From Caprimulgus europaeus (taxonomy: Eukaryota > Chordata > Aves > Caprimulgiformes > Caprimulgidae): DNA of 64,000 nucleotides. A program made the position numbers and the translations under genes. The stretch is taken from the NCBI GenBank assembly GCA_907165065.1, contig OU015541.1, forward strand, positions 15,428,501 through 15,492,500, given 5' to 3'. Below are positions 1 to 62,179 of this stretch, piece after piece. The notes beneath the pieces are model-generated. The model ran no database searches and was not told where the DNA came from. It worked only from the letters and a program-made list of their open reading frames with translations. Within the stretch, counting starts at the first letter, position 1, and every line of letters starts with the position of its first letter.

Positions 1-3000
1 TGAGCCAGATATTGAAGGAGAACCATCTGGAGTTCCTCAAGCAGGCAGAGCAAATGAACGTGCTCCTGCTTCAAGAAGAAAGCACGAAAGTAGCACTAAC
101 ATCGTGCCAGCAGCAAGTGAATCTGCTTGAGGAAGAGGTGCAGAAGAGAGAGGAATACAACAAAAGTCTGATGCAAAAACTCCAGCGCCAGGAAGAAGAA
201 CTGAAGACCTTGCAGTATGTCCAGCTTAGGCTAGGCAAGAGGAACGAAGGGGTCAGACAGGAGGGAGAGCCAGAGAAGCTCCTGGAAGAAGCCTTGCCTG
301 AGAGGGAACGAGAGACCAAGGCTCAAGGTGAGCAAAAAGAGTCAGAAGAGGAAATAAGAGCTCTTCAGGCAAATCTCCAGCATGTTCAGCAGACTGTGAC
401 AGAGAAGGATGAAGAGATCAAGTGCCAGAGAGACAGAGTCAGGTATTTAGAGGAGACTCTGAACGGGAGAGAACAAGAGCTCAGGAGGCAGAGTGAACTC
501 CTGAAACAACTCAGATCAGCTTTGAGATGGAAAGATGATGACGAGACCCTGCGGAAACAAATCCAGAAGCTGCAAAAGTGGGAGGAAGAGGAAGCAGAGA
601 AGAGGAGAGTTCTCCAGGACTTGCAGAGGCAGAAGGAGCTGAGCCAACAACTGGAAGCCGAGCGGAAAGCAAAGGGGGAAGAACTGGAGCGTGTGCTTGC
701 GATTTTGAAGCAGACTGAAAGCGGAGAAATCGAATGGAAGGAGAAGGCCCAAGCACTGACTCTTGCCCTCACCCAAAGTGAAATGGCCAATGGGACTCTG
801 AGGGAAGAAATCGCCGTCCTGCAGAGGATGGTTTCAGAGAGGGACACGGACCGGTTCCATCACCAGGTAGGCACTGTGACTGGTGAGCACTCGGCTAAAG
901 TGTCTGTAAAGGATTCTCATGGTGTTTCCCATAAAGATCTGGGAATGGATATTCCCATAAAGCTGTGACCTGCTTGGCCACAGAAACCACGACTGCAGCC
1001 AGCAGGCTGCAGAGCTGCGGCAGAGCTTCACCTTCACCTGCCGGAATGTTTTCTGCCAAGCCCAGAGCTCCTGCAAGGACCGCGGAGCTTGTGTCAAAGT
1101 CCAATCAAGACCAAAGGTTTGGGGTGGGTCCTTGGTTCTCTCCTGTCTAGGCAAGCTGAGCCAACGTGTCGTGCTTAGGATTTGGCATGGAAAGGAAAGG
1201 GCAGAGTTGGCCAAACAAATGTTCTGAACCTGGTAGAATTCTGTAACGAGGGCTGAAGAGCAGCTCCACTGATGGTGCTTAGAGGGTGAGGTCATTTACC
1301 TCATCTCCTCTCTGAATACCCTGCAGGCTACTGCAGAAGGGGAGCAGCCACCCCGGCCCTCAGAGAAGAGACTCCAGTCGCAGCAGCTGGAACATCTGCA
1401 GCGAGCAGTTGCAAGGCTGGAAGTGGAGAAGATGGAGCTGAAGCAATATAACGCTGAGCTCAGGAGGACTCTTGAGCAGGTAAAACAGGCTTTCGCTGCC
1501 TCTGCAAAGCCTCACTGTCCTCTGGCACACAACACATTTCCACAGACAGCACTTTGGAGTCCTCTGCTTGTCTCCTTCCCTCTCCCACTTCCCTCTGCGG
1601 ACACACGCTTTGGTGTTTTCTCTCTCTCCTGGCACCCCACGGCCTTTGCAAATGCACAGTCACCCCGGTACCACCCTTCTCGCCCCAGTGTCCCCGTGCA
1701 CACACATTGGACACTCCTGTGTCAGGAACTGTTTCCTCTTGCTCCATCTCTTCCATAGTCGACTTTGAGTGCTTTTTGCCCTCAACATTCTCTGGTGCAA
1801 GTAACGGTCTCTGAGCAGGAATCTCCTTGCTGTCATGTCCAGAGGGCCTTTTGCTCCTTGTTTGGTGGCAGGTTTCTGTGACCCTTTCTCCTGTCCAACG
1901 TGCAGGTGGAATGTGAACGGAGGAAGCTGAAGAGATACTGTCGGGGTCTGTCCCTGCCAGGTGGATGTGGATCTTCTGCCTCTGAGTGTGACCAGCACAA
2001 GGTTCCTGCTTCTGGGCAGGTGAGAACGGACTCTTCCTTGGGCAGAGGAGGCTCTGGCCATATGGAGGAACAATGGCAAATCCTGGTGGCAGCAGCCCCC
2101 CAGTGTAGACCTCATAGAAGTCCAATATAGACCATGGCCCCAGTGGAACTGGAGACTAAAAAGCCATCCTTGTGTTTTGTTCACAGGAGGAGTCTCACGT
2201 GTGCTGCGGTTGTCGGTTGGCTGAGCTGCAGAAGCAGGTGAGGAGCAGGAAAGCTCCTTCGCCTGTGCACAGCGTTGGCTGGGAAGTCCCTTTGAGCTCT
2301 TACTTTCCGTGTGTGCTACTGGCTTCCAATTCAGCTCTGTGCACTCCCCTTCCAGAGCTGGCTGCCCCACTTTCACATCTAGTCTGCTCTAGATGCTTAG
2401 CAGATGAGGGTCCCACTTTTTATCTGGTTTGCCTTTCTGTTGACAGACCTTGGTCTTGTCATTCCAAGGCAGCAGGGGCCTTAAAGCTCCTTCAGGAATT
2501 GCTTCTGTTACTTGCGTTCACTTGCCAAGAACTGATATTTTCCCCTTCCTAGCTGGAGGCTGGGGATTGCATTGCCATGTGGAACAAGCCCTTGGCAAAG
2601 CACAGGTCACTCTGAAAACAGAGGAAAACCTCTGGCCTGAGCTCTTTTCCCCAGAAGAGCAGAGCCCTGAGCGCTGCTCCCTGTGCCGGCATCTCCTCCG
2701 CTCCAGAGCAGACAGAGGGCAACACGCCAGAGCTGCTGTGGCTGCACAGTGCTGCAAACCTCAGAGGAGGTGAGGGCAGCTGGGTGTCTCCCAGCAAAAA
2801 GCCCAGCAGGCACAACCCCGTGGTGTCAGGATAGTGATTAACAGAGTTAGAGGAGTTTTGAGGCCTCAGCAGTCCTTCAAGGCTCATTTCTCCTCTGGCT
2901 TTGTTCATCCAATTACGCTCTGCTCATCTGTGAATGCTCTACAGTTAGGAAAGATGGGAGTTTGCTCCCTTGTCATGTGTGAGCTGCCAAGTTCTTAAAC

Positions 3001-3576
3001 TAGATCCTAACAGAACATGTTGTGCTGCACTACCTTGTGTAGGCAGGAGTCCTCCTGCTGAGGAAGAAGCACATGGAAGTAAGGTGTGAGTAACCCAAAC
3101 CTCTCCTTTGAAAACCAGAGTTGGGTTACTCAATCCTGTGGGAACCTCTGTCCTTAGTGTCCATGTCATGTCCCGGTGTTGTACGGGTGAATGGTTTGCC
3201 AGAAAGGAACTTGAATTGTTGGGAACCCGAGTTCAGTTCTGGGTGACGCCGGGAGCCTGTCCCTTCCCATTCCACAGGGACCAAGTGTTTGTCAGGGCTG
3301 GAGTCAGAGGGTGCCTCTCCCCTGAGAGCTGGCACCGTGGAGCTATGGATGGTCCTAACAGCGTGGGCTTGTCTGAGCTCGGCCTTTTGCCTCTTTCAGG
3401 TGTCCCTTCTGCAGACACAGCTGGAACAAGAACGAAAATACAAGCAGGACTATATTGAGTGCTGTGCAAAGACCAGCCAGGAGCTGTCAGAGCTGCACCA
3501 GGAGCTGTCTTCCTCCTTAGCAGCCGTGGTCAGGGAGCCCAGAGCTGCTGTTCTGGAGGCAGAGACGCAGAAGCTG
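1..3576 (+). repeat. Inverted duplication, arm 1 (partner 8444-12018)
   Basis: Exons and introns alike mirror 8444-12018. Every exon edge obeys x + y = 12019 up to about 3390, then 12020, so the arms differ by one net base. That base is an extra T in the polypyrimidine tract before the last exon (plus strand GCCTCTTTCAG versus GCCCTTTCAG). Substitutions are sparse. The arm reaches the window edge, so its full length is unknown. The inner breakpoint is at 3576, inside the last CEP250 exon just after the codons for EAETQKL. Confidence 0.97.
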
Positions 3577-3684
3577 GATCGGTCTCTGAACCTGAACTTG
3601 GGCACTAGTATGGACCGTCAGTCTCCTGTGAGACAGCTGTTGCCTTCAACAACCAGATCTGCCAGAAGCGGTGACCTGAGGTAA
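1..3684 (+). CDS. CEP250: CEP250 (C-Nap1) copy A, 3' part only, native C-terminus intact
   Basis: CEP250 is a coiled-coil linker protein holding the two centrosomes together at centriole proximal ends; NEK2 kinase releases it. Five in-phase exons are visible: 1-866 (continues left of the window), 1327-1479, 1906-2019, 2187-2237 and 3400-3684, giving 488 residues and a TAA at 3682-3684. Order and sequence match the human C-terminus as I remember it: a heptad-rich rod with GEIEWKEKAQ, then LEHLQ.AVARLEVEKMEL, RRTLEQVECERRKLKR, ELQKQVSLLQTQLEQERKYK, and the tail LEAETQKLDRSLNLNLG. No frameshift or stop is seen. Positions 1-3576 are duplicated in inverse orientation at 8444-12018; only this copy keeps the real last 36 residues. 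Whether its 5' half exists outside the window is unknown. Gene identity is secure; function of this copy depends on unseen sequence. Confidence 0.9.
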
Positions 3685-3829
3685 CAGGGGCAGTGTAGAG
3701 CAAAAAGCCTCAGCAGGAGCCAAATCAGGGACCGGAGCCCAAAGGAAGATGAAAGCTCAGAGCACAGTGTTCACTGCAGGAGCTCCAGCAGAAGCAGCGG
3801 TGGGACAAAACTGGTGCTAGCTTGTGAGG

Positions 3830-4395
3830 ATGGGGTCAGTCGTAGGCCAGGAAAAGCAGGATGCACCTGATGAGCAGGTACAACTCCTTCCATTTCCAAA
3901 GCTCTCCATCACAGTGTGGCTCCAGGTGGGCTCTCTCAGCCTGTCCTCACAGCAGAGCTGCTCCAGCCCTCGCATCATCCTCGTGGCCTCCTCTGCACTG
4001 GCTCCAGTAGCTCCATGTCCTTCTGCTGTTGGTGGCCCCAGCACTGGAGGCAGCACTGCAGGTGGGGTCTCAGGAGAGTGGAGCAGAGGGGCAGAATCCC
4101 CTCCCTGGCCCTGCTGCCCACGCTGCTCTGGGTGCAGCCCAGGACACGGTTATTGGCTCTGTGCTGCCAGCGCACGGTGCTGGCTCATGTGGAGCTTCTG
4201 GTCCCCCAGCACCCCAAGTCCTTCTCCTCAGAGCTGTTCTCCAGCCATTCTCCACCCAGCCTGGATCTGTGCTGGGGATTGCCCTGACCCAGGTGCAGGA
4301 CCTTGCACTTGGCCTTGTTGAACTCCATGAGGCTTGCCCGGTCCCAGCTCTCCAGCCTGTGCAGGTCCCTGTCACTGTACAGTTGACACGCATGA
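3830..4395 (-). mobile_element. CR1 LINE fragment
   Basis: Read on the minus strand, this gives the standard CR1 3' region: a phrase placing a friend-of-translation such as caggtcctgcacctgggtc, then ...ctggagccagtgcagagg, gccacgaggatgatgcgagg and ctggagcagctctgctgtga. The same block recurs at 63085-63512. It lacks the terminal ATTCTATGA tail, so it is truncated. It lies about 150 bp after the CEP250 copy A stop codon. Confidence 0.85.
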
Positions 4396-4565
4396 TGTGT
4401 CTGTTTCTGGCTGCCTCCTTTCCTTCAGCTGGTAACGTGGAGGAAAAGGTGACTTGGGCACCAATGTTTTTCATCCCCTGGGTTTTATAGTCTCCCCTGA
4501 TTTTGCCCAGGGTCTGGCTTGTGGTGTCTCATGCCCACAATCTCCAGTTAGGTATACTGGAAAGA

Positions 4566-4613
4566 GATGGATGGATGGATGGATGGATGGATGGATGGAT
4601 GGATGGATGGATA
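4566..4613 (+). repeat. (ATGG)n microsatellite
   Basis: About 11-12 uninterrupted ATGG units. The reverse-complement tetramer (CATC)n occurs at 62016-62068. Confidence 0.98.
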
Positions 4614-4955
4614 AAAACAGCATTAACCTGGCAGAGCCAGACCTTTCTCTGCAGTTCTCTAAAGACAGAAAAACACCCTCCCTCAGTTTCCAAATTACAT
4701 TTCCTTCCAGGCCTGGGGAATTATGAGAAACCAAAAGGAATGCAAAGTTGTATTTAATGACTGTGCAGAGCAGCTTCCACCTGGGTTGGGTACCTACGGC
4801 CAGATACGGAACCAACATCAAGAGAACATGAGACCAAAGGTTACCTACAAGCAGAGCAAAGCATCCACACAAACAACACCAAGTGAAGTGAAATCATCTC
4901 ACTGGGATTTAACATTTGTGCAGGCAGAAACAAAACAACTTTTTTCATACAAGTG

Positions 4956-4961
4956 AATAAA
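4956..4961 (+). terminator. Candidate poly(A) signal for CEP250 copy A
   Basis: An AATAAA followed by a T-rich stretch lies about 1.27 kb after the stop codon at 3684; another AATAAA is at about 5197. No nearer canonical hexamer was noticed between the stop and this site. Use of either by CEP250 is inferred from position only, and the CR1 insertion would then lie within the 3'UTR. Confidence 0.3.
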
Positions 4962-6479
4962 CTTATTTTTATTTGAAGACAGTTTTCTTTTTCAGCATTT
5001 CCACTGTTTCTGGTTCCTTCACACACATGAATATTGCATAAAGACAGGGAGGAGAACTTGTGTTAAATCAAATGCCCAACACTTAGGTTGCAAAAATGCG
5101 ATACATACAATATGTTCAATATACACAGCTGCATGAAAACAAATATACGTATTGTATTGTCAACTGTAACTCAGAATATCCAAATGTGGCTGTAACTAAT
5201 AAAAACTGATATTCAGTACCTCCTAAGAGGGATCTCCATGAGGTCTACCCACTCCCACAGTATTTCAAAATGAAAAAAATGGAGAGAGCAATTGCTCATC
5301 ATCTGATTTTGTTGGCTACCCATTAGCATTCTCCTCGTTAGGAAAGTAACTCTCCTTTCTGTTCTCTAGGGAAGGAAAAAAAAAGGAGGGGGGATTATGA
5401 GCAAAGGTTCTACTGAGGCAGAAAACAGTCTCAGCTTCATGTGCAAAAAAAAAAGACCAGGCTCTGAGCTGTGCATTTCCCTCGAGGGTCAGGGAAGACT
5501 CCTTGGCTGGTGGTTGGTGCCATGAAAACACTGCCCAGGAAAAGGTTGAGAAAAGGAGGGGAGGGTGGTGGAGAATATCAGGTTAACTGCCTGCATCATG
5601 CTGAGCCTGGAGCTTTATCCTGGGTGCAGTCTCAACAGGCTGTAACAGACGCGGGAGGTCCTGAGAGCTGAAAACAGTTGCACATGGAGAAAAGTAGCAG
5701 CAGCCTTTTTACCTTGTTATTTAATGTGGCAGAATTCCCATAAAGCGGAAGGTTTGACTGCTGTGGATGAAATGACCAACACCAAGATGAGTTCGGGCAT
5801 CAGCACGTTATTGAAGCTTTGCACTGCTTATATCTCCTTTTTTCCTCCCCACGCCCCACGCACGCGGCACTCTTTCACTTTTGATTCGTTACCCCTTATC
5901 ACACACGTGCCTGAACAACTGACATGGTTGGGTCAATCCACCTGTTCACGAGCTACTGGTTACTGATTACAGCTCACCATCATCCCTTATCTTGTCTCAT
6001 ACACATTCTTGCTTGTTAGGCCACTTTGTTTTATTTTTCACTCACGGTCAGGAATTAATTGCTCAAAGCTGAAGCCGCCTGCAGCTTCGGCTCTTAAAGC
6101 ACCAACAGAACAACATACTACTGCACATCCACACAAACCTCATGCTGCTTTAGGCTCTCTGAAACATAAATCACCAGCAGATTGTTAGTTTATTATTAGC
6201 AGATGATAAGTCAGAGGCTGCATAGGAAGAACCAGTCTGAGGAGCTGTGAGGCTGCAGCAGGTACGATGCCAAGTGAAGCTTCCTCGAGCAGCGTGGGCA
6301 GAGCAACCCAACAGAATCCACTGGGAAGGCAGACACAGTTTCCTTCATCTGCCCTAAAGACTGAAATTGCTTGTACGACGCGGATCTGGCGTGATAAATC
6401 ATTTTGTGGACCCCTCTCTCTCCAATGCGTCTCACTTGGAAGCGCATCCAAGGGCCTCTCTCCCTCCACTGTCCTGCCT

Positions 6480-7430
6480 CAGGGGCCGATTTTTCAGCGG
6501 CGGGATTTGCGAGACGCCCGAGCTGCCGCTGCCCGCCCCGTCAGTGCTCAGCGGCCCCAGACCGGGAAAACGGATCATCGTGGGGGAGTCCCGGGAGCGC
6601 GGGGCGGGGACGGGGGGTCCCGCACTCGCTCCCTCTGCTGTGCTCTGCTCTACTCTGCCCACCTGCAGCCGTCAGAGAGGCGCAGAGAGACGTGCAGGCG
6701 CTCTCCTGGCAGGAGGCCATGAGCCAACTTTGGCACTCAGCAGCCTCTGGGGGAGGGCAGCCCGCTCCCGCCCTCACGGCGACCGGCGGGGGCAGGAACC
6801 AGCCCCATGCAGCTCTGCGGCGGGTGAAGCTGCTGCGGGGGCGGCGATACCGAGAGAACGTCCCCTTCTGCTTAAACACCGCGACACTGTCAGGCGGTTA
6901 CACCCGCTCGGCCGAGTCCAGTTCAGAGCCGGACAGAGACCACAGGAGCCTTGAGGCGTCGGATCTCGGGGAAGGCACCGAACCGCTTCCACCGCTGCAG
7001 CGAGTCCACGGCGCCGCGCAGCCCAAACCAAACCCGCCCTCCGGGGCCGGGCCGGCACCGCCCAAAGCCCTGAGGCCGAGGGGGCTGGCGTGGAGAGGAG
7101 GGGGCTCCCGCTCTCCTCCGGCCCGGGAAGCTCCTCGCTCTTCCCGCCCTCCTGCCAGCGGCCCCCGGGCCTCTGAAGGGCACCCGGGAGACGCTGCCTG
7201 GGCCGAGATGGCGGGGCTGGAAAGGGCTCAGAGCAGGCGGAGCTGCCGGCAGAGAGCGGTTCTCCCTCGCTGGGACACAGGCCCCCTCCCGCCCGTGGCT
7301 GCCCTCTGGGCAGGGGCTGGAGTTGGTCACTGGTGCCCTGCTGAGACCCGCCGAGCTGTCCCCGGGCCGGCTGTCGCGCCGACAAAGTGAAAAGCAAATC
7401 ACCTCAGGAGAGCCCCGGGGCTGCTTGTGC
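6480..7430. promoter_or_regulatory. Orphan CpG-island-like block in the palindrome spacer
   Basis: The sequence is strongly G+C rich with many CpG dinucleotides, unlike the AT-rich flanks. It resembles the island at the CEP250 promoter (26590-27740), but I saw no direct sequence match. Long open frames on both strands are the expected by-product of stop-poor GC-rich DNA and do not resemble a known protein. It could be a promoter, the remnant of one, or a GC-rich first exon. No splice-linked downstream exon was recognised. Confidence 0.5.
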
Positions 7431-7437
7431 TGCGGTG

Positions 7438-7605
7438 AGGAAGGGAAGGGGAAGGGGAAAGGGAAAGGGAAAGGGAGAGGGAGAGGGAGAGGGAGAGGGA
7501 GAGGGAGAGGGAGAGGGAGAGGGAGAGGGAGAGGGAGAGGGAGAGGGAAGGAAGAAGAAAAGGAAGAAGGGAAGGAAGAAGGGAACGAAGAAGGAAAGGA
7601 AGGGA
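7438..7605 (+). repeat. Purine-only (GGGAGA)n / (GGGAAA)n / (GGAAGAA)n tract
   Basis: Roughly 165 bases are almost entirely G and A on the plus strand. The tract passes from GGGAAA units to GGGAGA units to GGAAGAA-type units. Its repetitive open frames ([14 protein letters not shown]) are not genes. Confidence 0.97.
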
Positions 7606-7739
7606 GGAAACAAAAAACCCCACTCAGTTGTTCCCCCTCACTCCCTGGGCTGCACTCTCCACCCCTCCAGTTTGATAACACCTCCATCTCCCTCTCTCCT
7701 CACAGGGAACGGCTCTGAGCTCCAGAGGTTAAAGCCAAC

Positions 7740-8281
7740 TGTGCTGGTTTGGGTGGATTCACCCTTTTTGCTTGCAGCCAAACACAGTCACTGTCCCACC
7801 CTAACTACCCCCCAACCTTGCCCAGGGAGTAGGGGAGAGAATTAGAAAGAAAAGGGCATGGAAACTCATGGATTGAGATAAAAACTATTGACCAATTTAA
7901 ATAAAATGATAATGATAACAACAGTGATAACAGAATATTCATATGAGTGACACACAGCGCTCACCGCCCACTGACCGATGCCCGGCCTGTGCCAGCCAGC
8001 GATCCCGGAGCAGAGAGAGTCCCGAAACCGAAACCCCGCAAGAGCGAGAGCCCGAGAGAATCCCCCCGATCTCGGGCCAGCCCTGGTTAATGCACTGACA
8101 TGATGTGACATGATCTGGGATATCTCCCTGGCACATCCCAATGCCAGTTTGGGGTTTGCTATTCACTGCGCTTCTCCCTCCCAGTCCTAATGCAGCTGTG
8201 AAGCAGCCAAACACCACGGCCTTGGGCTCCAGCAGCAACTCCTCACACCAGTACTGTTATCAACGTTCTTCACATAACAAG
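7740..8281 (-). mobile_element. Truncated endogenous retroviral LTR (minus orientation)
   Basis: The same LTR family occurs at 28129-28739. The block 8085-8281 is nearly identical to 28443-28640 (a handful of differences in ~195 bp), while the remainder is clearly diverged. Read on the minus strand, this copy starts abruptly at 8281 and lacks about the first 100 bases present in the other. No internal retroviral coding region is seen. It ends only about 160 bp from the palindrome breakpoint. Confidence 0.8.
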
Positions 8282-8443
8282 TTCTGCTGAAAATGATTTA
8301 AAAAGCAGCATCACTTGGAGGTGCTTCCAAAGGCAAAGAGAACAAACACACCCACATTTCCCACAGCAAAACAGAATGTATTCCTGGGAAGGGCACAAGG
8401 CAGGAACCCCGCGATGCTGCAGCTGCTCTGCTACAGGAAAACA

Positions 8444-11400
8444 CAGCTTCTGTGTCTCTGCCTCCAGAACAGCAGCTCTGGGCTCCCTGACCACGGCTGC
8501 TAAGGAGGAAGACAGCTCCTGGTGCAGCTCTGACAGCTCCTGGCTGGTCTTTGCACAGCACTCAATATAGTCCTGCTTGTATTTTCATTCTTGTTCCAGC
8601 TGTGTCTGCAGAGGGGACACCTGAAAGGGCAAAAGGCCGAGCTCAGACAAGCCCACGCTGTTAGGACCATCCCTAGCTCCACGGTGCCGGCTCTCAGGGG
8701 AGAGGCACCCTCTGACTCCAGCCCTGACAAACACTTGGTCCCTGTGGAATGGGAAGGGACAGGCTCCCGGCGTCACCCAGAACTGAACTCGGGTTCCCAA
8801 CAATTCAAGTTCCTTTCTGGCAAACCATTCACCCGTACAGCACCGGGACATGACATGGACACTAAGGACAGAGGTTCCCACAGGATTGAGTAACCCAACT
8901 CTGGTTTTCAAAGGAGAGGTTTGGGTTACTCACACCTTACTTCCATGTGCTTCTTCCTCAGCAGGAGGACTCCTGCCTACACAAGGTAGTGCAGCACAAC
9001 ATGTTCTGTTAGGATCTAGTTTAAGAACTTGGCAGCTCACACATGACCAGGGAGCAAACTCCCATCTTTCCTAACTGTAGAGCATTCACAGATGAGCAGA
9101 GCGTAACTGGATGAACAAAGCCAGAGGAGAAATGAGCCTTGAAGGACTGCTGAGGCCTCAAAACTCCTCCAACTCTGTTAATCACTATCCTGACACCACG
9201 GGGTTGTGCCTGCTGGGCTTTTTGCTGGGAGACACCCAGCTGCCCTCACCTCCCCTGAGGTTTGCAGCACTGTGCAGCCACAGCAGCTCTGGCGTGTTGC
9301 CCTCTGTCTGCTCTGGAGCGGAGGAGATGCCGGCACAGGGAGCAGCGCTCAGGGCTCTGCTCTTTTGGGGAAAAGAGCTCAGGCCAGAGGTTTTCCTCTG
9401 TTTTCAGAGTGACCTGTGCTTTGCCAAGGGCTTGTTCCACATGGCAATGCAATCCCCAGCCTCCAGCTAGGAAGGGGAAAATATCAGTTCTTGGCAAGTG
9501 AACGCAAGTAACAGAAGCAATTCCTGAAGGAGCTTTAAGGCCCCTGCTGCCTTGGAATGACAAGACCAAGGTCTGTCAACAGAAAGGCAAACCAGATAAA
9601 AAGTGGGACCCTCATCTGCTAAGCATCTAGAGCAGACTAGATGTGAAAGTGGGGCAGCCAGCTCTGGAAGGGGAGTGCACAGAGCTGAATTGGAAGCCAG
9701 TAGCGCACACGGAAAGTAAGAGCTCAAAGGGACTTCCCAGCCAACGCTGTGCACAGGCGAAGGAGCTTTCCTGCTCCTCACCTGCTTCTGCAGCTCAGCC
9801 AACCGACAACCGCAGCACACGTGAGACTCCTCCTGTGAAGAAAACACAAGGATGGCTTTTTAGTCTCCAGTTCCACTGGGGCCATGGTCTATATTGGACT
9901 TCTATGAGGTCTACACTGGGGGCCTGCTGCCACCAGGATTTGCCATTGTTCCTCCATATGGCCAGAGCCTCCTCTGCCCAAGGAAGAGTCCGTTCTCACC
10001 TGCCCAGAAGCAGGAACCTTGTGCTGGTCACACTCAGAGGCAGAAGATCCACATCCACCTGGCAGGGACAGACCCCGACAGTATCTCTTCAGCTTCCTCC
10101 GTTCACGTTCCACCTGCACGTTGGACAGGAGAAAGGGTCACAGAAACCTGCCACCAAACAAGGAGCAAAAGGCCCTCTGGACATGACAGGAAGGAGATTC
10201 CTGCTCAGAGACCGTTACTTGCACCAGAGAATGCTGAGGGCAAAAAGCACTCGAAGTCAACTATGGAAGAGATGGAGCAAGAGGAAACAGTTCCTGACAC
10301 AGGAGTGTCCAATGTGTGTGCACGGGGACACTGGGGCGAGAAGGGTGGTACCGGGGTGACTGCGCATTTGCAAAGGCAGTGGGGTGCCAGGAGAGAGAGA
10401 AAACACCAAAGCGTGTGTCCGCAGAGGGAAGTGGGAGAGGGAAGGAGACAAGCAGAGGACTCCAAAGTGCTGTCTGTGGAAATGTGTTGTGTGCCAGAGG
10501 ACAGTGAGGCTTTGCAGAGGCAGCGAAAGCCTGTTTTACCTGCTCAAGAGTCCTCCTGAGCTCAGCGTTATATTGCTTCAGCTCCATCTTCTCCACTTCC
10601 AGCCTTGCAACTGCTCGCTGCAGATGTTCCAGCTGCTGCGACTGGAGTCTCTTCTCTGAGGGCCGTGGTGGCTGCTCCCCTTCTGCAGTAGCCTGCAGGG
10701 TATTCAGAGAGGAGATGAGGTAAATGACCTCACCCTCTAAGCACCATCAGTGGAGCTGCTCTTCAGCCCTCGTTACAGAATTCTACCAGGTTCAGAACAT
10801 TTGTTTGGCCAACTCTGCCCTTTCCTTTCCATGCCAAATCCTAAGCACGACACGTGGGCTCAGCTTGCCTAGACAGGAAAGAACCAAGGACCCACCCCAA
10901 ACCTTTGGTCTTGACTGGACTTTGACACAAGCTCCGCGGTCCTTGCAGGAGCTCTGGGCTTGGCAGAAAACATTCCGGCAGGTGAAGGTGAAGCTCTGCC
11001 GCAGCTCTGCAGCCTGCTGGCTGCAGTCATGGTTTCTGTGGCCAAGCAGGTCACAGCTTTATGGGAATATCCATTCCCAGATCTTTATGGGAAACACCAT
11101 GAGAATCCTTTACAGACACTTTAGCCGAGTGCTCACCAGTCACAGTGCCTACCTGGTGATGGAACCGGTCCGTGTCCCTCTCTGAAACCATCCTCTGCAG
11201 GATGGTGATTTCTTCCCTCAGAGTCCCATTGGCCATTTCACTTTGGGTGAGGGCAAGAGTCAGTGCTTGGGCCTTCTCCTTCCATTCGATTTCTCCGCTT
11301 TCAGTCTGCTTCAAAATCGCAAGCACATGCTCCAGTTCTTCCCCCTTTGCTTTCCGCTCGGCTTCCAGTTGTTGGCTCAGCTCCTTCTGCCTCTGCAAGT

Positions 11401-12018
11401 CCTGGAGAACTCTCCTCTTCTCTGCTTCCTCTTCCTCCCACTTCTGGAGCTTCTGGATTTGTTTCCGCAGGGTCTCGTCATCATCTTTCCATCTCAAAGC
11501 TGATCTGAGTTGTTTCAGGAGTTCACTCTGCCTCCTGAGCTCTTGTTCTCTCCCGTTCAGAGTCTCCTCTAAATACCTGACTCTGTCTCTCTGGCACTTG
11601 ATCTCTTCATCCTTCTCTGTCACAGTCTGCTGAACATGCTGGAGATTTGCCTGAAGAGCTCTTATTTCCTCTTCTGACTCTTTTTGCTCACCTTGAGCCT
11701 TGGTCTCTCGTTCCCTCTCAGGCAAGGCTTCTTCCAGGAGCTTCTCTGGCTCTCCCTCCTGTCTGACCCCTTCGTTCCTCTTGCCTAGCCTAAGCTGGAC
11801 ATACTGCAAGGTCTTCAGTTCTTCTTCCTGGCGCTGGAGTTTTTGCATCAGACTTTTGTTGTATTCCTCTCTCTTCTGCACCTCTTCCTCAAGCAGATTC
11901 ACTTGCTGCTGGCACGATGTTAGTGCTACTTTCGTGCTTTCTTCTTGAAGCAGGAGCACGTTCATTTGCTCTGTCTGCTTGAGGAACTCCAGATGGTTCT
12001 CCTTCAGTATCTGGCTCA
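8444..12018 (-). repeat. Inverted duplication, arm 2 (partner 1-3576)
   Basis: This is the reverse complement of 1-3576 with a one-base net length difference. Amino-acid differences seen across the shared exons include KQAEQ/KQTEQ, EELERV/EELEHV, EEIAVL/EEITIL, VECERR/VERERR and VSLLQ/VSPLQ (arm 1/arm 2), plus one CGA/TGA stop. The breakpoint at 8444 joins CEP250 coding sequence to unrelated DNA. Confidence 0.97.
8585..8587 (-). other. CEP250: Premature TGA in last exon of CEP250 copy B
   Basis: In arm 1 the codon at 3433-3435 is CGA (Arg in LEQERKYKQDY). The matching codon here reads TGA on the minus strand, a typical CpG transition. It ends the protein after ...QTQLEQE. Read past it, the frame would also leave CEP250 at the breakpoint (8444) after EAETQKL. 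Confidence 0.95.
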
Positions 12019-15000
12019 TTTTGTCTAGCTCCTGCTGCAGACTCTTGGCCTGCTTGCCCTCTAACTCCTTCTGCTCGCGAAGGTCCTGGACATGCTCTTG
12101 CAAAGACACTATCTCTTCATCTCTAGCTTCTAGAGAAGATTCAGCATGCTCCAGTTTTTGCAGTATAGCTTTAGCCTGCATCACTGCCTCCTCCTTTTGC
12201 TGCTGAAGCTTGGAGAGAGCCTCCTCCAGAAGCCCTATCTGTTCTTCTCTTTCTTTCAGAGTCAGTTTTGTTGCTTGAAGATTTCTTTGCTCAGCTTCAT
12301 GCTCTTCCTCCTTTTCCTTGCATGCCTCACACAGCTTTCTAAGGGACACAATTTCTTGATCTTTTTCCTTCAGTGCCACTTGAAGGTGTTGCAGAATTTC
12401 CTTCTGCTGCTCAGATTCCTGTTCTTGTTTTTGGAAGGTCTCAATCACTTCCTTCTGAGATTCAATCATCAAATCCTTTTCTTTCACTATTGCTGCGCTG
12501 TGTGCCAAGTCTCTGCGTAAGATATTCAGCTCTTCTTCTTTTTTTTCCTCATAGCTCCTTGTTTGTTGCTTCTGGATGTCTATGAGTCTGTCCTTTTCTT
12601 TCAGGGTTTCCAAGGTCTGCTCCAGTTGGTCACGGACAGTCCTTAACTGCATTTCCATGACTTCTTCAGCTTCCTGCATTTGCTTTTGCTGTGACTCAAG
12701 CTCCCGATCTTTTTCAGATAAAGAAAGTGCCATCTCCTCTACTTGACCACGAAGCTCTTGCAGGTGCCCCTCTTGCTCTTCCTTGTCCTGCTGCAAGAGC
12801 CTTAGCTGATCCCTTTGAGAGTCACACTCACTCTCTCTGTCCTCAAGAGCTGCCCTCAGGTGTTCGAGGCTGGTGCGCAGAGATTTCACCTCTGCTCTCT
12901 CCTTCTCCAGCTCTTGGATCTGCTCCATCAGAGACATAAGCTCTAGGTTTTTCTCCTCCAGGTTTCCTTTCACATGGTCAAGATCCACCTGCAGACTTCT
13001 CACTTGGGATGCACCATGTTGCTCTAGAATCATTATTTTCCCTGCCTGGAATTTGATCTCCTGCTCTCTCTCCTCCAGCTCTTTGCTCATCTTGCTGACA
13101 GCCGTCCTCTGCATTTCTCCCTGCTTCTCCAGTTCCCGAATCTCTTCTCGCTGGGATTTGATCTCCTGCTCTCTCTCCTCCAGCTCTTTGCTCATCTCAC
13201 TCACAGCAATCCTGTCTTTTTCTTGCTGCTTCTCCAGCTCCCGGATCTGTTCTTGCTGGGATTCTGTCTTCTGCTTTCTCTCTGTTAGGTCCTTAACAAC
13301 CTGATCAAGAGTAGTTTTATGCATTTCTTCCTGCTTTTCCAGCATCCTCATCTGATCCTGGTTCAACTTCATTTCTCCCTCCTTCTCTGACAGGAGGGCA
13401 GTCAGACGAGTGAGAGTCTCCTGCAAAGTTTTTCCCTCTGCTGCCTCTTTCTCCAGCATCTGGATTCTCTCCCACTGCGTCTCCACTTCCTCATTTTTCA
13501 TTTTTAAGATAGACAATGTAGTTTGAAGTTCTTGTTGAAGGCAGTGGTTCGTGTCTGTTGCTGTATTTGCTCGGGTTTCCGAGGCTGTGACCGACTCCTG
13601 AAGCAGTTTTACCTCCCAGACCAGTTTTTCTGTCACTGCTTGCAGTCTGTCCCGGTCACGCTGCAAAACAGTGAGAAAAAGACTGAACAAGTCCATCCAC
13701 AGATGTTTGCTTTTCAGTGCAGTCAAGGGCTGTCCTCTATGTCCCTGACTCGAGTTTTCATCCCCTAGAACCCCTCTGTGCCCTCTGAGTGACGCTCAGA
13801 TCTCAGTCTGTCACGCTGTGTTTGAAATCAGGACTAGTTTTCCCCTTGCAGGCAAACATATTTACCTGGATCAGCACTTTTGGTTCTCAGATCTATTTTT
13901 CCCCACTTTCTGCTCTCAGATGGGCAATGTTGAACAGCTTTCTAGTATTAGCAAACTTTGTCTTCTCACCCCTTTTTCCAGATCCAGATAATTAGAAATC
14001 TAATATGGATTTGGACACAGTTAATTGCCCAAACCATGCAATGTAAATAAAGACAAGTTTGAAAATTGCTTTGACTAAAGCTTCAAGGGCAGAAATCTTC
14101 AGAACGGAGGAAAACCATCACCTTGAACCATAACTGGGTTTTCTATCACTACAGCATCTTTTCCTGCTTATTCAGAAGAATGCCAGTGGACAAGTGAAAG
14201 CAAAAACCAGCCACTGGTATAAATAACACTCCTCTGCTCCTCTCGTGGTCTCTCCACATGGTTTGTGATATCAGTCACCTCAACCAACTCTCCTTTCTGG
14301 ACTGTCTTCTCTTACCCAAGGTGATGACCCTGCTAATTCAGCTACATGGCCTGGCAGGAAAGTAAAAGTCTGGGAACAAGGAATGATGAGTGGAAGGAAG
14401 GGGAAAAAGAGAGAGAAACTTGGTCAGCATTTTCCCTACTCTGGATCTTCTCAGATTTGCACTGAACCTGCACAAGACCACCCCAAATCTGCTCTCCACT
14501 GGAAAAGGTTGCTCCTTAGAATGATTAACCAAAGGCCATCAATATGTAAGGAAAAGCCCTTCACAGCATCTGCCAGCCTCACCAGGACGTCCTTTCTCTG
14601 CTTCTCGGTGCTCTCAAGTTCCCTTTCCAAAGACGCCACCTCTTGATGTAGACTCAGGGCCTCCTTCTTTAGAGCAGCGGCCTCTTCCTGCCAGGCAGCT
14701 TGTAGAGAGTTGTTCTTGCCTTCTGCCATCTGTGTCTCTGCAGCAGTAAAGGTGAAGGAGAATGTTCAAAGCAAAGCAAAGCCAAACTGATTTGCATCCT
14801 ACAGATAAAACCTCGTTTTCTTATCTGCCTGTCTGTGTTTCCCAGGCCCTAAGCCCACAAGGACTTTCAGAGCAGACAGAAGGAAAGGAAACTTCCAGGC
14901 AGAGAAGAAAAGAAGAATCAAAGTGGCAAGATTCAGAAGAAGAAGAAAATGTGTTTGCTCTTGTGCTTGTTGAAAGGCCAGCGTTAAGGGCAAGGCAGCA

Positions 15001-18000
15001 CATCCCCCACAGTGTTAGAAGCAGGTAGAACCGCCATCAGTCAACAAGGACAGAGAGTAGCTGAGAGTCAGATGTAGTGTCCTAAAGGAAAAGGGAGAAG
15101 AAGCAAAAGTGAAGACTGACTATGACACAGTTAACTGACCTGGAAGACTTAAGAGACATTAGAGAAAAGAACAGATGTCAGTGTTGTGCTTGAAGATGCA
15201 CTTTGGTATTGGTCCAAAAGAATGCTAGAGGAATATGTTGTGCACTGGCAGAAAACAGAAGAAGGGAAATATTCAGCGATACCAGGCAACAGCAAGGCAG
15301 GAACAAGTGAGCACCATACCAGGACCAAGACCTGAAGCAAGAAGGACTACAGAGAGCTACCAGGGAACTAGGAAAAGCAGCAGAACAAAGGCTGCAGTAA
15401 CCCAGGAGCTGAACACTGAACTAATGCTCTGTGACTCTGTCACGCAGGAGGAAAAGAAGCCAATAAAGACAAGGCTTTTTGCAGGCTGGTGCTTTTCAAA
15501 AGCATCCGGAGAAGGATGCTGTGAGGCATCAAGCTGCACCTACTTAGAAGTGACATGTGACCTGAAAGGCATCACCTTTGCAGGTGTGTCACCAGGAGCA
15601 CAGCCAGATGCAGGGCCAGCACTGGACCTTTATAAAAGCCCTTCACTGGTAGTTCTCTAGATAAGTCTCATGCTTGTTGTTGTTCTCCTCCTCCCCTCGC
15701 CCTGCACCACCCTCTTCCTCTGCGTGATGTCAGAGATCTCTGCTGGTGAGACGGGATGGGGTCAGTGGGTTGGAGAGGAGAAGCTGTACCTTCCTGGCTT
15801 TGAGCCAACTGTTTCTGCAGCTCTTCATTGTGGGCACTCAAACCGTCCCTCTCAGCTTGCCTCTCGCTCAGCTCCAGCTCCAGGTCCTGTATCTTCTTCC
15901 TCGCATCATTCTGGAAGAGGTAAGAAGAGAACCATCACCTCCCAGAGCCACTGCTGGCAGGAGACAGAGCTACAAACGCTAAGGCAGAAACAGCCAAGGC
16001 AGGAGGGGGCAGCTGGACAGTAACGGTAGATGTGATCAGGGTTCTCCTTTCTCCCCGGGGCAGCAAGCCAACCTGGCCTACAAGAATCTACCCCCATTCT
16101 GGCCTTGGGACTCTGCTTGTCAGGTCAGTTCAGCAGAGGGACAGGATTTCTGGGTGCTGTGGACACACGTTACCAGATCTTGCTGAGTCTGCCTCAGGTG
16201 CTGACACAGGTCTTGTAGGGCCGCTGCCACTCTGTCCACTATGAGCTCTGCAGGGAGGTCCCTGGCCTGAGGAACAGCGAGGCCCCCGACACCACCCTGT
16301 TCTGAAGAGAGAAGCCATTCTGTTTCAAGCTGTCACTGAAGAGTCTCCAACAAACAAGGCCTCTTTAGACACAGGAGAAGGTGGCAGTGCCTTTGCTGTT
16401 GTCCTAGAGCTCACATGACAGCGAGATGCGTGTCACAGGCCAACGTTATGCTAATGACCACTAATGTCAGCGCTGCCCCAAGGAAGAATGCACACGCCCC
16501 GTGACTGGGCATGACCTGGGCCCTGTTTCAGTTTGATGCTGGTCACTTCTCCACATACAAACATGGACTCGCCCTCCACAGGGTTGTCAGGCTTGAGCCA
16601 TCCTAAACTGAAAGGCTGAGTCTATCGCACTGGGATTACCCAGAACCAGCCCTCCCTCCCTCTGCTCTCCCGCACGTGCTCTCCAGCCCTGCTCACCCAG
16701 CCTGCCGGGCTCACCTGAACTCCAGGTGCCTGAGCCTCTGCTGTCACAGACCGTGCGGTGCAGAACCAAGCGCAGTTTGTCCAGCTGGGATCGGGCTTCG
16801 CAGCGGGCAGCGCTCGCCTGCTGACACTCTGTGGCCAGCGCCTTTGCTCTGCTCTCTGTGCTGCAGAGCCTCGCCCGCAGCTCAGACATCTCAGCCTCCA
16901 GCGCGCGCAAAGAGTCCCTCAAGCACCGCTCGCCTGCTCGGGACTCCGCCAGGTCCTGCAGCAGCTGCTTCTCTCGAGTTGCCAGGCCAGCCTCCTTCTC
17001 CAGCACCACTGCCTGCAGTGACTGTACCTGTGACAGATGCACAGAGCCTCAGGGGCAGGGCAGCTACTGAGGCAGCAGGGCAGGAAGTAGAGGAAGGAAG
17101 GAAGGAGAAATCGCTTCAAGCAAAAAGCACGCTGGAAACAGAAGGCACAAAGCCAAGGATTCAAACCGAGCAAAAATAAGCCAGAAACGGGTATCTGGAG
17201 GCTGAGGGGCCAAAAGGAAGTGTCCCCGTCCCCAAAGAATGGCCCAGCTGTCAGGCTGCCAGGCTTTCCAACCTCAGGAATGAAGCTCTGTGTGTGTGTG
17301 TAACCGTGAGAGCGGGGGGCTGGCAGGGTGAGGTGGCAGATCAAGCCCCCCTGCATGGAGAGCGGGGCTGCCAGGGATTCTTGGCAGTGTAAGTAAAGGG
17401 GAGACAATCGGCATCCTTTATGGTGCATCTCCAAAGTGCCAGATGAACTGGCTGAGATGGAAGTGCCTTCCACAGACTGCCATCACCACTTCTGCTTCAC
17501 CACATTGCTCGGTGCCCGACAGAGGTAGAAACACCATCTGGGGACAACACTTGTAACAGAGATGCTGAGAAGCTCCAAAGGAGTCTTCTGTTTCTCCTCA
17601 GAGGTTTAATGCTGTGGACCCTGAGAGAACAGGGAAAAACACAGGCAGAACCCAGCAGATCCAGCCCTGACCTCCACGTGCAAAGTCTCTGGGCAGAATA
17701 AATACAGGAGGGTGTGTTGTTGGGAGGGGAGACAAGTTGGGGCCTACAAGCTGCAGGTGGTATTCCGTGTCCTTGGAGAAGAGGATGCTAGTGCATAGGT
17801 CACCTGGTTGTTGAGCTCTTGTATTTCTCTCCTGTGGTCTGAATGGAGCTGCTGGGCCTGGTGAACAGCAGCAAGAAGCCGAGACACTTCATTCTGCTGG
17901 GCAAGGTTGTTTTCTTGCAGGGTTCTGAGGCTCAGTTCCTTCTCTTCCAGAGACAGAGTCAGTCTGAAGGAGAGAGCATGCAACTTGTTACTACACGGTA

Positions 18001-21000
18001 CAACATTTAATAAACTCTTAGAACTCCCTCCAGCAAGGGGAAAAGTGCTTTGTCTGCTGAGCTTTGTCTAAACAACCAGGCTGCTTGTTCAGGCCTAGGC
18101 CAGGCTGGCAGTCGCACCCAAGCACGTGGCATGGAAGTTTCACTGAACAGGATCAAAATGCCAACCTAGCGAAAGAACACCTCCCTTTCAGGAAAGGACT
18201 GCTCCAAAAGCCATAACCTTCAGAAAAACTGTACCTGAAGGGTTGAAAGAAAAGAAAATGAAACCCAGGATGAGAGAATGAAACATATCTGCACGGCCAG
18301 TGTAGAACTCTGCTTTTTAGGAAATGCTGCTGGAGTCACTTGTGTATGCAAAGACCTGAAGGAGGGACGCCCTCAACAGAACGGAGAGTCTCACAGGCTT
18401 CCATTTACCTGGCTTTTTCACTCTCTAGGACCTTCAGTGAAGCCTGAAATTCTGTGTTGTGACGCTCCACTTCTTCCCATCGACTCTTTTCCCCCTCCAA
18501 GGTCTGCAGACACACTTGCAGCTCCTTGTTCTGATGCTCTACCTCTGCCCATTGACTTCTCTTCTCCTCCAGGATCTGCTGGAGGTGCTGAACCTCCAGC
18601 ACCTTCTGCCTTGTCAGTTCCTGTGCCTCACTCAGATCTCGCTGAGCTTTGCGGCCAGTCACTTGCTGGGACTCTTTAGAAGCTGCTAGCTGAGCTCTCA
18701 ACTCTTCCACCTCAAATAAAACATAACAAAGCAGTCAAAGACTACAGCTTGTCACTGTCAGCCATATCCTCTCCTGCCAGGAAAGGGAAAGAACAACTTT
18801 CCATTTCACCCTGTCATGAGAGAACCAGATTTCCAATGGATACAGATGATTTGTTTAAAAATCTAAGGGGGTCACCATGCTCATCTGAAAAAAGCCCCTT
18901 AAATAACAAGAGCAGAGAAATCCATTCTGATGATTGCTGGCAAACAGGCAAAAGGACCAGCCCATCTGTCCAGGGCAGCAGCTGAGATTCAGCTGGCTGC
19001 TAAGTCTCCTTCAGAGCAGCTGAGATGGAGACCAGAGCATGTTGGCAGCCAGAGGGATTACCCCATCAGCCTGCTGCTCTGCAATGGAAAGGCAAGAAGG
19101 GGACACACCCCCTGTTTGATGACTGGAGGAGCCATTGCTGTTTCAGTCACCTGTTTTTGCAGAGCATCCCTCTGCTGAAGAAGGATATTCATTTCCTCTT
19201 TGACAGTTTGGATTTCTTCCTCGTGCCTCTTCTCCGCTGCCTTGATCTGACTCTCAGTTTCCTGCAGCTCTGCCTGCAGCTTGTCTGTGATGTTCTGTAA
19301 GCACAACAGGAGATCAAGCTACTGGGACCTGCCATCAGGCCCAGCTTCTTCCCCTTTCTGTCTCCAATTCACATTCATTCAGACAATTCCTTCTGCTTTT
19401 CCACCCAGCTCTGTTTCCACTGTAACCCTCCTTCCTGTTGCTGAGCTCTGGAGCTTTCCAGGCTCTGTGCTCTCAGTGCCTGCACGAGTCCTTGCCTCCT
19501 CCGTTGCAGGACTTCTCTTTGACTTCCTTGTTCCTGCCCTTCCCTCTGGCTCTCTCAGCCTCTCTCTCAGCTTACGTCCATCTGCCAGCGGCCCGTTCCT
19601 TCAGCCTCCCCTCCCCGTCAGACCTACCTGCCCCTTCTCTCGCTGCTCCTCCACCTCCTGCCGGAGCTGCTCTACCTGCTGGCAGGCTTCTCTGAGCTCT
19701 CCCCGAGTCTGGAGCAGTGTCTCTAATAAAGCATTCTGCTCACGCTCCTTTTCTAGCAGGACCTGCACAGAAATAGAGAGAAGAAGACTGATGGGCTCAC
19801 GTGTTCTCCAAGCACTGTGCTGCTGGTCTCCCAGGGCATCATCTGCCCACTTGGAGACACAGCTTCCTAAGTGACATTGGCAGTATCGACATGTTCCATC
19901 CACGGTCCATCTGTGACTGAATCTCCAACAAACTCTTAGTCATTTAACAGGAGAACGTGTGGCGTTTCTCAAGTGTCTTGCCTTGCTGGTGAGGGTGTCC
20001 CTCATCTGCTGTGTCCTCCTTGACTTTCAGTAGTGACTTTTGCACCTACTTAGCAGGAGAGAAAATGCAAGGCTGCCAGAGGGCTGAAGCCAGCAGCTCC
20101 TTCAGAAAACTCCTGTGTTCTAAGCCGGGACGGGTAGAAATGACTTCAGTTTAAAGGTCTTCAGTTTGGTTTTATCTCAACCCATGATTTTTCTCACTTT
20201 TACCCTTTTGATTCTCTCATCCCAGTCGGGGAGGGTGAGCGAGTGGCTGTGTGGTGCTTGGCTGCCAGCCAGGCTAAAACCACCACACCTTGCAAAAAAC
20301 CACACAAATTCTCCTTTCACACTCTTTACCTCTTCCTTGGCATTTTCAGCTCGGGTTCGTTCTTCTTCTTGTTGAGCTTGCATGGCAGCAACTTGCTGCT
20401 TCATGTCAAACAGCTTCTTCTTGTGCTCCCTTTCTGTCTCTGCTTTCTCCTTTTCCTGTTGCTCCAACATCTCCTGCAGCTCTGAGTGGTGCCCTTCCCG
20501 CTCGCTTGCCTGATGAGGGGAGGAAAAGCCTTCACGATGGAGTCCCAGACAAGGTCCTCAAAAGAAAATGGGAAACTTCATCCCTCCCACAAACCTCCAC
20601 CTCAACAGCACTCAGCAGTGGCATCGTGCCCTCTGTAAATCATGTCCTATCAAGGAACTTGAAAGCAGGGTCAGCAGGTGGAAGACTCAAAGAATCATTT
20701 AGGCTGGAAAAGACCTTTAAGATCATTGAGACTCTTTTCTCAGAGTCTCTGTTTTCAAAGCTCAACTCCACTCCCATCAATGAAAAGGTGCAGATGGACT
20801 GCAGGGTGAGGAAGAGGCCAGTACCCCGGGGCCCTGTCACAAGACAGGCCAAGAACTGCAGTACCAGGAACAAGGGGCCTGTTCCATACGCTTCAAGCCC
20901 AAAGACAGTCCCTCTGTCAGCCAGGAAAGGACAGAAGGAAAGGAACAAAGTTCCCGTGACCGCAGCTGGCAGGAATGTTCGGAGTCTCCCTCATGGTGGG

Positions 21001-27000: not shown

Positions 27001-27317
27001 GGCTCCCGGCGCCTCCTCCCGGAGCTCCGAGCTACCGGCTCCGCACCGTCCCGCCCGCGGCAGCACCGGGCTGGGCCCTGGGGAAGGCGCCGTTGGGGTC
27101 GCGCGTTCGCCCCCGAGGTGGCCGCCGCCGAGTCCCTCCTCAGCGCGGCCCGGGCTGCCCGGGCACCCCGGCCCCTCTCCCGGGCAGCTCCCCTGGGCCG
27201 GGCGCCCCCGCTCCTCACCTTCGCCTGCAGCTTCTGCACCAGCACCGCTTGCCGCTGCTGGGCCTCCTGCGAGCTCTGCAGCCGGTGCTGCAGGGAGACC
27301 AGGCTCCGCGCCGCCAT
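8585..27317 (-). CDS. CEP250: CEP250 (C-Nap1) copy B, full 5' end, truncated C-terminus
   Basis: This centrosome-linker coiled-coil gene has 21 in-phase exons: 27219-27317 (ATG, QEAQQRQAVLVQKLQAK), 26128-26184, 25325-25407, 24547-24643, 23985-24178, 21677-21804, 21302-21471, 20330-20509, 19628-19762, 19151-19294, 18409-18710, 17804-17963, 16715-17027, 16174-16301, 15790-15910, 14583-14737, 11153-13660, 10540-10692, 10000-10113, 9782-9832 and 8585-8620. All boundaries are GT/AG and phases agree throughout, giving about 1775 residues against roughly 2440 in human. Landmarks shared with human include ELSALLEQSQKQNE, ESSLFE, RQAKEVIQG and ERERRKLKR. Relative to remembered human CEP250, about 190 residues are absent between exons 3 and 4. 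A TGA in the last exon and the breakpoint behind it remove about the last 80 residues. It may still be expressed; loss of the C-terminal tip could affect centriole targeting or NEK2 control (inference). Confidence 0.9.
11153..13660 (-). CDS. CEP250: Giant 2508-nt coiled-coil exon of CEP250 copy B
   Basis: A single exon of 836 codons (about residues 823-1658) begins RDRDRLQAVTEKLVWEV after an AG acceptor at 13661 and ends RDTDRFHHQ before a GTAGGC donor. It is continuous heptad coiled coil, rich in E, Q, K, L and R, with almost no proline. Vertebrate CEP250 is known for a very large rod exon, so this organisation supports the identification. Its last 866 nt are also present, inverted, at 1-866. 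Confidence 0.95.
13016..13370 (-). repeat. CEP250: 35-residue (105-nt) tandem repeat within the CEP250 rod
   Basis: The nucleotide string beginning atttgatctcctgctctctc starts at 13051 and again at 13156, a period of 105 nt or exactly five heptads. The protein unit is of the form I-R-E-L-E-K-Q...M-S-K-E-L-E-E-R-E-Q-E-I-K. A more diverged unit (MRMLEKQEEMHKTTLDQVV...) precedes them. Human CEP250 has similar degenerate ELEKQRE-type repeats, so the repeat mode is old, but the two central units here are recent. Confidence 0.85.
20165..20287 (+). mobile_element. 3' fragment of an endogenous retroviral LTR
   Basis: It starts in the family's conserved ttttatctcaacccatga stretch and ends in ...aaaaccaccaca. 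Corresponding sequence occurs near the 3' end of the LTR at 33211-33858. It sits in the CEP250 intron, about 40 bp from the donor side of the exon at 20330. Confidence 0.75.
20685..20775 (-). mobile_element. CR1 3'-end remnant
   Basis: The string agaatcatttaggctggaaa followed by agacctttaagatcattgag is the reverse complement of the usual CR1 3' end (compare 42020-42070). It is short and lies inside a CEP250 intron. Confidence 0.6.
21805..23984. other. 2.2-kb CEP250 intron without recognisable features
   Basis: This intron separates the exons ending LAEAR and beginning SVKESLESSLFE, which are adjacent in human CEP250, so no missing exon is expected. No coding-like or repeat segment was recognised. 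Confidence 0.6.
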
Positions 27318-27740
27318 GGCCCTCCGCTCGCCAGCCGGGCCCGCCGCCCGAGGGGCTCCGCCGCCTGACAGGCCTCGCGGCGGGGGCTGCTCCGCGGCCT
27401 GGCCCCGGCGGACGGCGCTCAGGTGTCCCCGGGCCGCGGCCGGGCGCCTGCCCCGGCGGGGCGGAGGGGTTCCCCCTGCTCGCCGGGGGCGACCAGCAGC
27501 CGGTCCGCGGTGCGGGAGAGCCGGGCTCGTTCGGGGCTGCTCTAGGGCAGCGCTTCCCTTCTCGCTCCTCACTAATGAATCCGCGCCGGGCTGCGGTGCT
27601 GCCGCGGGGGAGAGGCCGCCTCGGCAGCGCTTTGCTCCAGCGAGTTGTGCTCAGAGGCTGTGAACGGCCCCGGAGAACGTTGCGGGCAAAACGCTCCCTC
27701 GAGCGCGAGGAAACCAACGGTCCCTGGCCGCAGAGCGGCG
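26590..27740 (-). promoter_or_regulatory. CEP250: CpG island / promoter of CEP250 copy B
   Basis: The sequence is G+C rich with dense CpG and spans the first exon (ATG at 27315-27317) and flanks. The island continues upstream of the start codon to about 27740 and weakly to 27980. This is the usual housekeeping-promoter arrangement. The many long overlapping open frames here are a composition effect. No divergent gene was recognised on the plus strand. Confidence 0.75.
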
Positions 27741-28128
27741 CGGGGGGTCACGGGGAGCCGGGAGCGAGGCGGGCGGGACCGCAGGGACAGGAGGAAAGGT
27801 CCCTGGCCCCGGGGAGCCGAGGAAACAGCCAGAGCTTTCTCCTGAACGCTCCAGCTCCAGCCCTCGGCCGCCCACGCAGGCGGAATGGCCGAGTCTTTTT
27901 CTGCCTCCTGTGCAGCAGCAGCGGGACAGACCGCGAGCGCTCGGAGAGAAACGGGAATGGGAGAGAAAACGGCACATTCCCAGGACAGCGCGCTCTCTCG
28001 ATTGAGCTTTATTTCCCGAGCTCATCAAGAAATCCAGCAAGCAAACGTGACAAACAGGGCTGAGTCCCCTTGGCCCTCACTACCCCATTACGTGAATTCA
28101 CATCTTCACCACTCGAGTCGGGAGGTTT

Positions 28129-39824: not shown

Positions 39825-62179
<22,355 letters not shown>

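Follow-up and report, generated by a model that had tools for sequence, protein, structure and literature searches.

Trimmed copies beside the complete CEP250 gene of Caprimulgus europaeus, with gene bodies most likely homogenised by gene conversion

On contig C17 of Caprimulgus europaeus, two stretches of the gene CEP250 lie as near-identical inverted arms, which raises the question of whether they arose by a recent duplication or have been kept alike by ongoing gene conversion, the two options left by the original prediction for this locus. The window, i.e. the whole stretch of 64,000 nucleotides analysed here, covers C17:15428501-15492500 within a 1.18-Gb genome of 121 contigs.

The palindrome and its two CEP250 genes

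Self-BLAST of the window returned a single inverted match, positions 1-3576 against 12018-8444, with 99.05% identity, 33 mismatches and one gap, exactly at the coordinates that had been predicted for the two reverse-complementary arms. Self-BLAST and exon comparison identified the left arm (1-3576, plus strand) as the 3' part of a complete CEP250 gene, here called L, whose exons in the window lie at 1-866, 1327-1479, 1906-2019, 2187-2237 and 3400-3684 on the plus strand. In the right arm (8444-12018, minus strand), homology to L runs on to 27315. The only indel between the arms is a T at 3392 with no partner in the right arm, which explains the reported shift of the paired exon edges from a sum of 12019 to 12020 with one net indel. 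The substitutions, expected to be sparse, number 33 (24 transitions and 9 transversions), with 12 differences in 1359 coding and 21 in 2217 non-coding positions. Five of the coding differences are synonymous and seven nonsynonymous, including, in the right copy, a CGA-to-TGA change at 8587. A chance match was ruled out by 99% identity across 3.6 kb, and a palindromic read artefact by the unique spacer and the natural substitution pattern.

The last exon of L extends past the end of the left arm, its frame continuing for 35 codons to a TAA at 3682-3684. The right arm ends at the same codon (AAG CTG) and is followed by different DNA. The spacer between the arms (3577-8443) comprises the 3' flank of L, a repeat that we take to be CR1-like, a CpG-rich stretch with no assigned gene at ~6250-7400 and a presumably LTR-like repeat at 7748-8280 (plus strand). 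The latter is 79% alike to a direct partner at 28127-28639 (plus strand), which we likewise assume to be LTR-like, and the two flank the right gene copy on both sides. Away from CEP250, an inverted pair of 411 bp with 95% identity lies at 47857-48266 and 52833-53243. On the minus strand upstream of the right copy, exons at 34434-34967 and ~39886-46399 match glycosyltransferase family 29 (ST3GAL1-like), SH3 and ankyrin repeats, the last two belonging to what we take to be an ASAP-like gene. Rfam and tRNA scans gave no matches.

It had been suggested that the palindrome may reach beyond the window edge, and indeed 30 kb more sequence on the left prolonged the match to C17:15406303-15432076 against C17:15455815-15436944. 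The arms thus measure 25.8 and 18.9 kb, inverted around a unique 4.9-kb spacer. Their blocks are separated by insertions and deletions and are 97.7-99.2% alike (mean difference 1.2%), so that an identity above 99% over the arms is not reached. L starts at C17:15406283, outside the window. Its exons match residues 1-2451 of owl (Strix) CEP250, and 31 of them chain in one frame of 2447 aa. A frameshift suspected in its big exon proved to be a late alignment start, the exon being open for 864 codons. No match to GDF5 or ERGIC3 as neighbouring genes was found in the C17 stretches examined with human fragments as queries.

The right copy, R (8588-27317, minus strand), starts with an ATG at 27317, comprises 21 exons encoding 1815 aa and stops at the nonsense codon TGA (8587-8585, minus strand) where L has CGA. 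The exon models of both L and R are mechanical and contain a few doubtful stretches. R lacks the regions corresponding to Strix residues ~87-252 and 286-666 as well as the last 35 codons, and its first exon has a weak, below-cut-off match to the Rootletin profile. A second full CEP250 copy had been proposed head-on to the first. The pair is present and lies tail to tail, and the left copy is the complete one. The window is therefore the tail-to-tail junction of two CEP250 genes, the complete L and a trimmed paralog, R.

Further trimmed copies on C17 and C14

The locus is not the simple two-copy palindrome it had seemed, as it belongs to an amplicon that comprises, on C17, no fewer than three trimmed copies plus a fragment. 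Copies C (C17:15204606-15224782, plus strand) and D (C17:15159427-15139461, minus strand) and fragment F (C17:15173364-15174843), which has the same 3' junction, sit 0.2-0.3 Mb left of the L/R pair. C and D lack the block 286-666 with the same edges as R, and R, C and D have the loss of a 5.95-kb block in common. C and D retain the block 87-252, and ~950 bp are missing in frame from their largest exon. C and D form the arms of a second inverted repeat, 97.3-99.6% alike per block. Other repeats, direct as well as inverted, 1.4-6.8 kb long and 96.4-99.6% alike, lie in the region C17:15130987-15233683, where D and C stand head to head. Next to the 5' sides of these two copies, fragments of the canonical last exon of L and its 3' flank occur at three places (C17:15164937, 15192962 and 15202327).

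The trimmed copies share both of their ends. Whereas L starts with MATWPTEAARS, the start of the trimmed copies, MAARS, is six codons shorter, and homology of L to R, C and D begins at codon 7 of L. Beyond this point the 5' flanks of R (27318-27815, minus strand), C and D are 97.3-98.3% alike, that of R being 97% like those of C and D. The 5' flank of L shows a faint but significant relationship to the C, R and D flanks, with alignment scores of 80.5-85.3 against maxima of 72.5 (C) and 67.75 (R) in 500 dinucleotide shuffles each and of 71.75 in 86 control CpG-rich windows-by-strands. At the 3' end, the last 35 codons and TAA of L (3577-3684, plus strand) are missing from R, C, D and F. The junction flank of R (8281-8443, minus strand) is identical to that of C over 163 bp (100%), and D and F share 82 bp of it (99-100%). 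The 3' flank of L showed no homology to that of R (z 0.6). In the last exon, the TGA derived from CGA is present in R, C and F, whereas D has CGA followed by a TAA at most three codons on.

A genome search with the trimmed junction flank led to a fifth place, C14:149493-149646, with 90% identity. It belongs to another trimmed copy, X (C14:122136-149646), which lies near the contig end, is interrupted by inserts and has a gap in mid-gene. X starts with MAARSPVSLQRRLQSS, the trimmed-type start, in place of the longer canonical one, and ends at the trimmed 3' junction. Its 5' flank can be aligned to that of C over 508 bp (84%), and to that of L in only one 62-bp block. The flank of R is 79-84% like the C14 flank. 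X, R, C and D thus agree in their MAARS start, 5' flank and 3' junction, none of which is found in L. X retains CEP250 exons of the block lost from R, C and D and has neither the last-exon stop of R, C and F nor that of D, its frame continuing to LEAETQKLCVFL and then a stop. In R, C, D, F and X, coding homology ends after LEAET[QR]KL or at most 9 residues past it. Compared over 4,489 positions, the body of X is about equally distant from L, R, C and D (11.6-11.8%), and L and R differ there by 0.8%.

The trimmed type in other birds

The best matches are bird proteins named CEP250. No protein in the list of 91 exceeds ~80% identity over the arm, so that the list holds no near relative of the species. 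We collected 125 bird proteins, of which 76 carry the C-terminal motif. After this motif, 22 of the 76 (from 8 species) end within 13 residues and 54 continue for 30-45. A start was readable in 25 proteins: all 10 with a trimmed tail begin with MAARSQASL, none of the 7 with a full tail does, and 8 have no readable tail. The association between start and tail is significant (Fisher p 1.2e-4, counted by rows with a partial Zapornia protein left out; by species the comparison is 5 vs 4). Five other birds have CEP250-like proteins with both trimmed ends. Trimmed tails occur in Accipitriformes (Gymnogyps, Morphnus), Sphenisciformes, Procellariiformes, Nyctibiiformes, Otidiformes and Ciconiiformes, and where readable the last residues are similar (HFL in a penguin, LFL in a stork, HCL in a potoo and VFL in X). 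More broadly, CEP250-like proteins of Morphnus, Haliaeetus (presumably also Accipitriformes), Gymnogyps, Aptenodytes, Calonectris, Nyctibius, Mycteria, Chlamydotis and doves have the same MAARS start (MAAPS in doves), the missing C-terminus or both, and in Morphnus, Aptenodytes and Chlamydotis several copies lie on one contig. These are predicted proteins only, several of which lack other exon blocks than R does. Because both trimmed ends co-occur across orders, these protein annotations, the sole evidence from other birds, suggest that the trimmed type had one origin early in Neoaves and is about as old as Neoaves.

For phylogenetic analysis of the arm region, 51 of the 91 proteins were hand-picked for alignment, giving a first tree of 45 rows, including the window pair, and a second of 32 rows. 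The window pair are sisters, as are the full and trimmed proteins of the bustard Chlamydotis (100/100). A single clade of trimmed rows was rejected (p-AU 3e-44), for a grouping chosen after the first tree had been seen. Both results speak for conversion. The trimmed copies of eagle, condor and shearwater group apart from the full Sagittarius protein (84/81, 99/88), so that conversion is not seen there, and no full-length copies of these species were among the protein matches found. Either conversion is not universal, or the full copies of eagles, condor and shearwater are unsampled. The condor, eagle and shearwater proteins lack nearly the same block, Strix residues ~261-493. Furthermore, a low-quality CEP250 prediction of Cyanistes caeruleus contains part of the C-terminal region twice, and Patagioenas fasciata has many short CEP250-like predictions on one 17.6-Mb contig, with MAAPS as the readable starts. 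The owl CEP250 query found no relative among viral contigs.

Gene conversion, rival explanations and known systems

Over 15,637 positions common to L, R, C and D, the copies differ pairwise by 1.0-1.5%, and L from the other three by 1.2-1.4% (L-R 188, L-C 188, L-D 214, R-C 210, R-D 237 and C-D 157 differences, counts that include a tandem-repeat zone inflating R). The equal conservation of exons and introns claimed originally holds in the 3.6-kb arms but not over the whole gene: with the tandem-repeat zone removed, the L-R comparison gives 28 differences in 4725 coding positions (0.59%) and 151 in 11970 non-coding ones (1.26%; Fisher p 8e-5), and the C-D comparison 0.69% and 1.11%, respectively. 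The L-R coding differences comprise 18 nonsynonymous and 10 synonymous changes, which, at a neutral site ratio of 2.48, gives a ratio of ~0.73. The bodies would therefore be under mild constraint, or copied from something constrained.

The ends of the copies give the tree (L,(X,(R,C,D))), and the bodies give (X,(L,R,C,D)), two opposed trees that a plain duplication tree cannot both yield. Without exchange, the distance from R to L, which lacks the trimmed ends, should equal or exceed that from R to X. As L is more than ten times closer, the bodies should have converged after the trimmed type had arisen and X had split off. Homogenisation, most likely through gene conversion, has thus affected the C17 bodies of CEP250 and its trimmed copies and left their ends different. 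We consider it highly probable, from these sequence comparisons, that the trimmed copies are old and that the C17 bodies are kept near-identical by conversion that stops where homology ends. The copies, their ends, the clash between ends and bodies and the conflicting sites are observations. That the exchange took place by conversion, how fast and in which direction it ran, how old the trimmed type is and what its proteins might do are inferences. Mechanistically, the inverted and dispersed C17 copies could pair during repair, with conversion proceeding without crossover. Conversion would be confined to common sequence, so that promoters, junctions and missing exons remain private. L would supply the complete protein, and R would persist as a trimmed paralog with its own 5' flank and MAARS start, lacking the C-terminal 35 codons and internal exons.

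Exchange among the four C17 copies is also indicated by single sites. After removal of the tandem-repeat zone and near-gap positions, 28 of the 14,998 positions retained support a pairing at odds with the main four-copy tree (14 pairing L with C and 14 pairing L with D, against 51 for the main pairing of L with R). CpG transitions account for 8 of the 28, and parallel mutation simulated at CpG rates of 1, 10, 20 and 40x yielded means of 0.5, 1.5, 2.6 and 3.7 such sites, with a maximum of 10 (300 runs each). In the last exon, all four combinations of two neighbouring variants (~20 bp) occur across R, F, C and D. Neither a switch test (P 0.25) nor a pair test (P 0.52) detected clustering of the 28 conflicting sites along the gene, and hence no long conversion tract is visible. 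Some of them could come from polymorphism older than the amplification. Sites separating L from R, C and D are weakly enriched near edges (11 in 1590 positions within 400 bp of an edge vs 53 in 13,573 elsewhere), and at 13 such sites that could be polarised, X agrees with R, C and D at 11 and with L at 2.

Of the two options initially named, conversion stands and recent duplication does not, because the trimmed ends occur on the C14 copy 11.6% away, which makes the duplication older than the arm divergence suggests. A scenario in which CEP250 gained an inverted copy between a few hundred thousand and a few million years ago, which was trimmed and amplified with no conversion, would account for arms 98.8% alike, for the missing 5.95-kb block and the junction that R, C and D have in common and for the near star-like distances among L, R, C and D. 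It is nevertheless very improbable, since several bird orders also have proteins with trimmed ends, L has a 5' flank that is a diverged relative rather than a copy of the trimmed one, 28 sites conflict, and the C14 copy would have to evolve at least ~10 times faster than R. Somewhat less improbable, though still very unlikely, is a single recent overwriting, in which the CEP250 body replaced that of an old trimmed copy (or vice versa) before amplification produced R, C and D. The nearly star-like distances agree with this, and R, C and D show no clear block of common derived body changes apart from L, sharing few or none, which also fits one recent overwriting and amplification rather than steady exchange. 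However, the conflicting sites in four copies require exchange after amplification, and so do the four variant combinations in the last exon.

The remaining alternative, a second CEP250 haplotype placed inverted beside the first by the assembly, could draw on an arm difference of ~1%, which lies within the range of bird heterozygosity. We give it hardly any credence: the private flanks, junction and missing exons of R recur in C and D and partly in the C14 copy and in the proteins of other birds, no N occurs in the window or in 260 kb of sequence examined, and the 24:9 ratio of transitions to transversions with one indel in the first 3.6 kb resembles mutation rather than read error. A false haplotype duplication would consist of allele-like copies with no private structure, whereas R has such structure.

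If old trimmed copies are indeed homogenised by conversion, the pair in each species should be near-identical inside and different at both ends. Bird annotations of CEP250 and CEP250-like genes could then not be sorted into orthologs by their bodies, and read mapping and dN/dS would be misleading. CEP250 (C-Nap1) and its C-terminus have a role in centrosome cohesion. It is conceivable, and we propose it only tentatively, that a trimmed paralog under a promoter of its own has survived for much of neoavian history while its body was repeatedly rewritten from CEP250, and that its protein may tune or oppose CEP250, for example in the germ line. A single genome here holds the complete gene, adjacent trimmed copies and, as a clock, an unhomogenised trimmed copy on another chromosome.

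A literature search, mostly outside subscription journals, found no report of a CEP250 palindrome, of the trimmed type or of its conversion. In the Asian king vulture, CEP250 and SPAG4 are listed among the families that have expanded (PMC11043450). That expansion is similar, but the accessible part of the paper describes no palindrome, trimmed type or conversion. Arm-to-arm gene conversion is best known from sex chromosomes. Primate X and Y palindromes are described as large inverted repeats with near-identical arms undergoing such conversion (PMC8981503, PMC3723533), and the CEP250 locus resembles them in its inverted arms and in an old duplication that appears homogenised by conversion. In contrast to the >99% identity of primate palindromes, the CEP250 arms are 97.7-99.2% alike. 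Moreover, one arm here carries a complete centrosomal gene and the other a trimmed one, and further copies lie outside the palindrome. Unlike the primate X and Y, C17 is not known to be a sex chromosome. This genome holds what is needed to test arm-to-arm conversion elsewhere.
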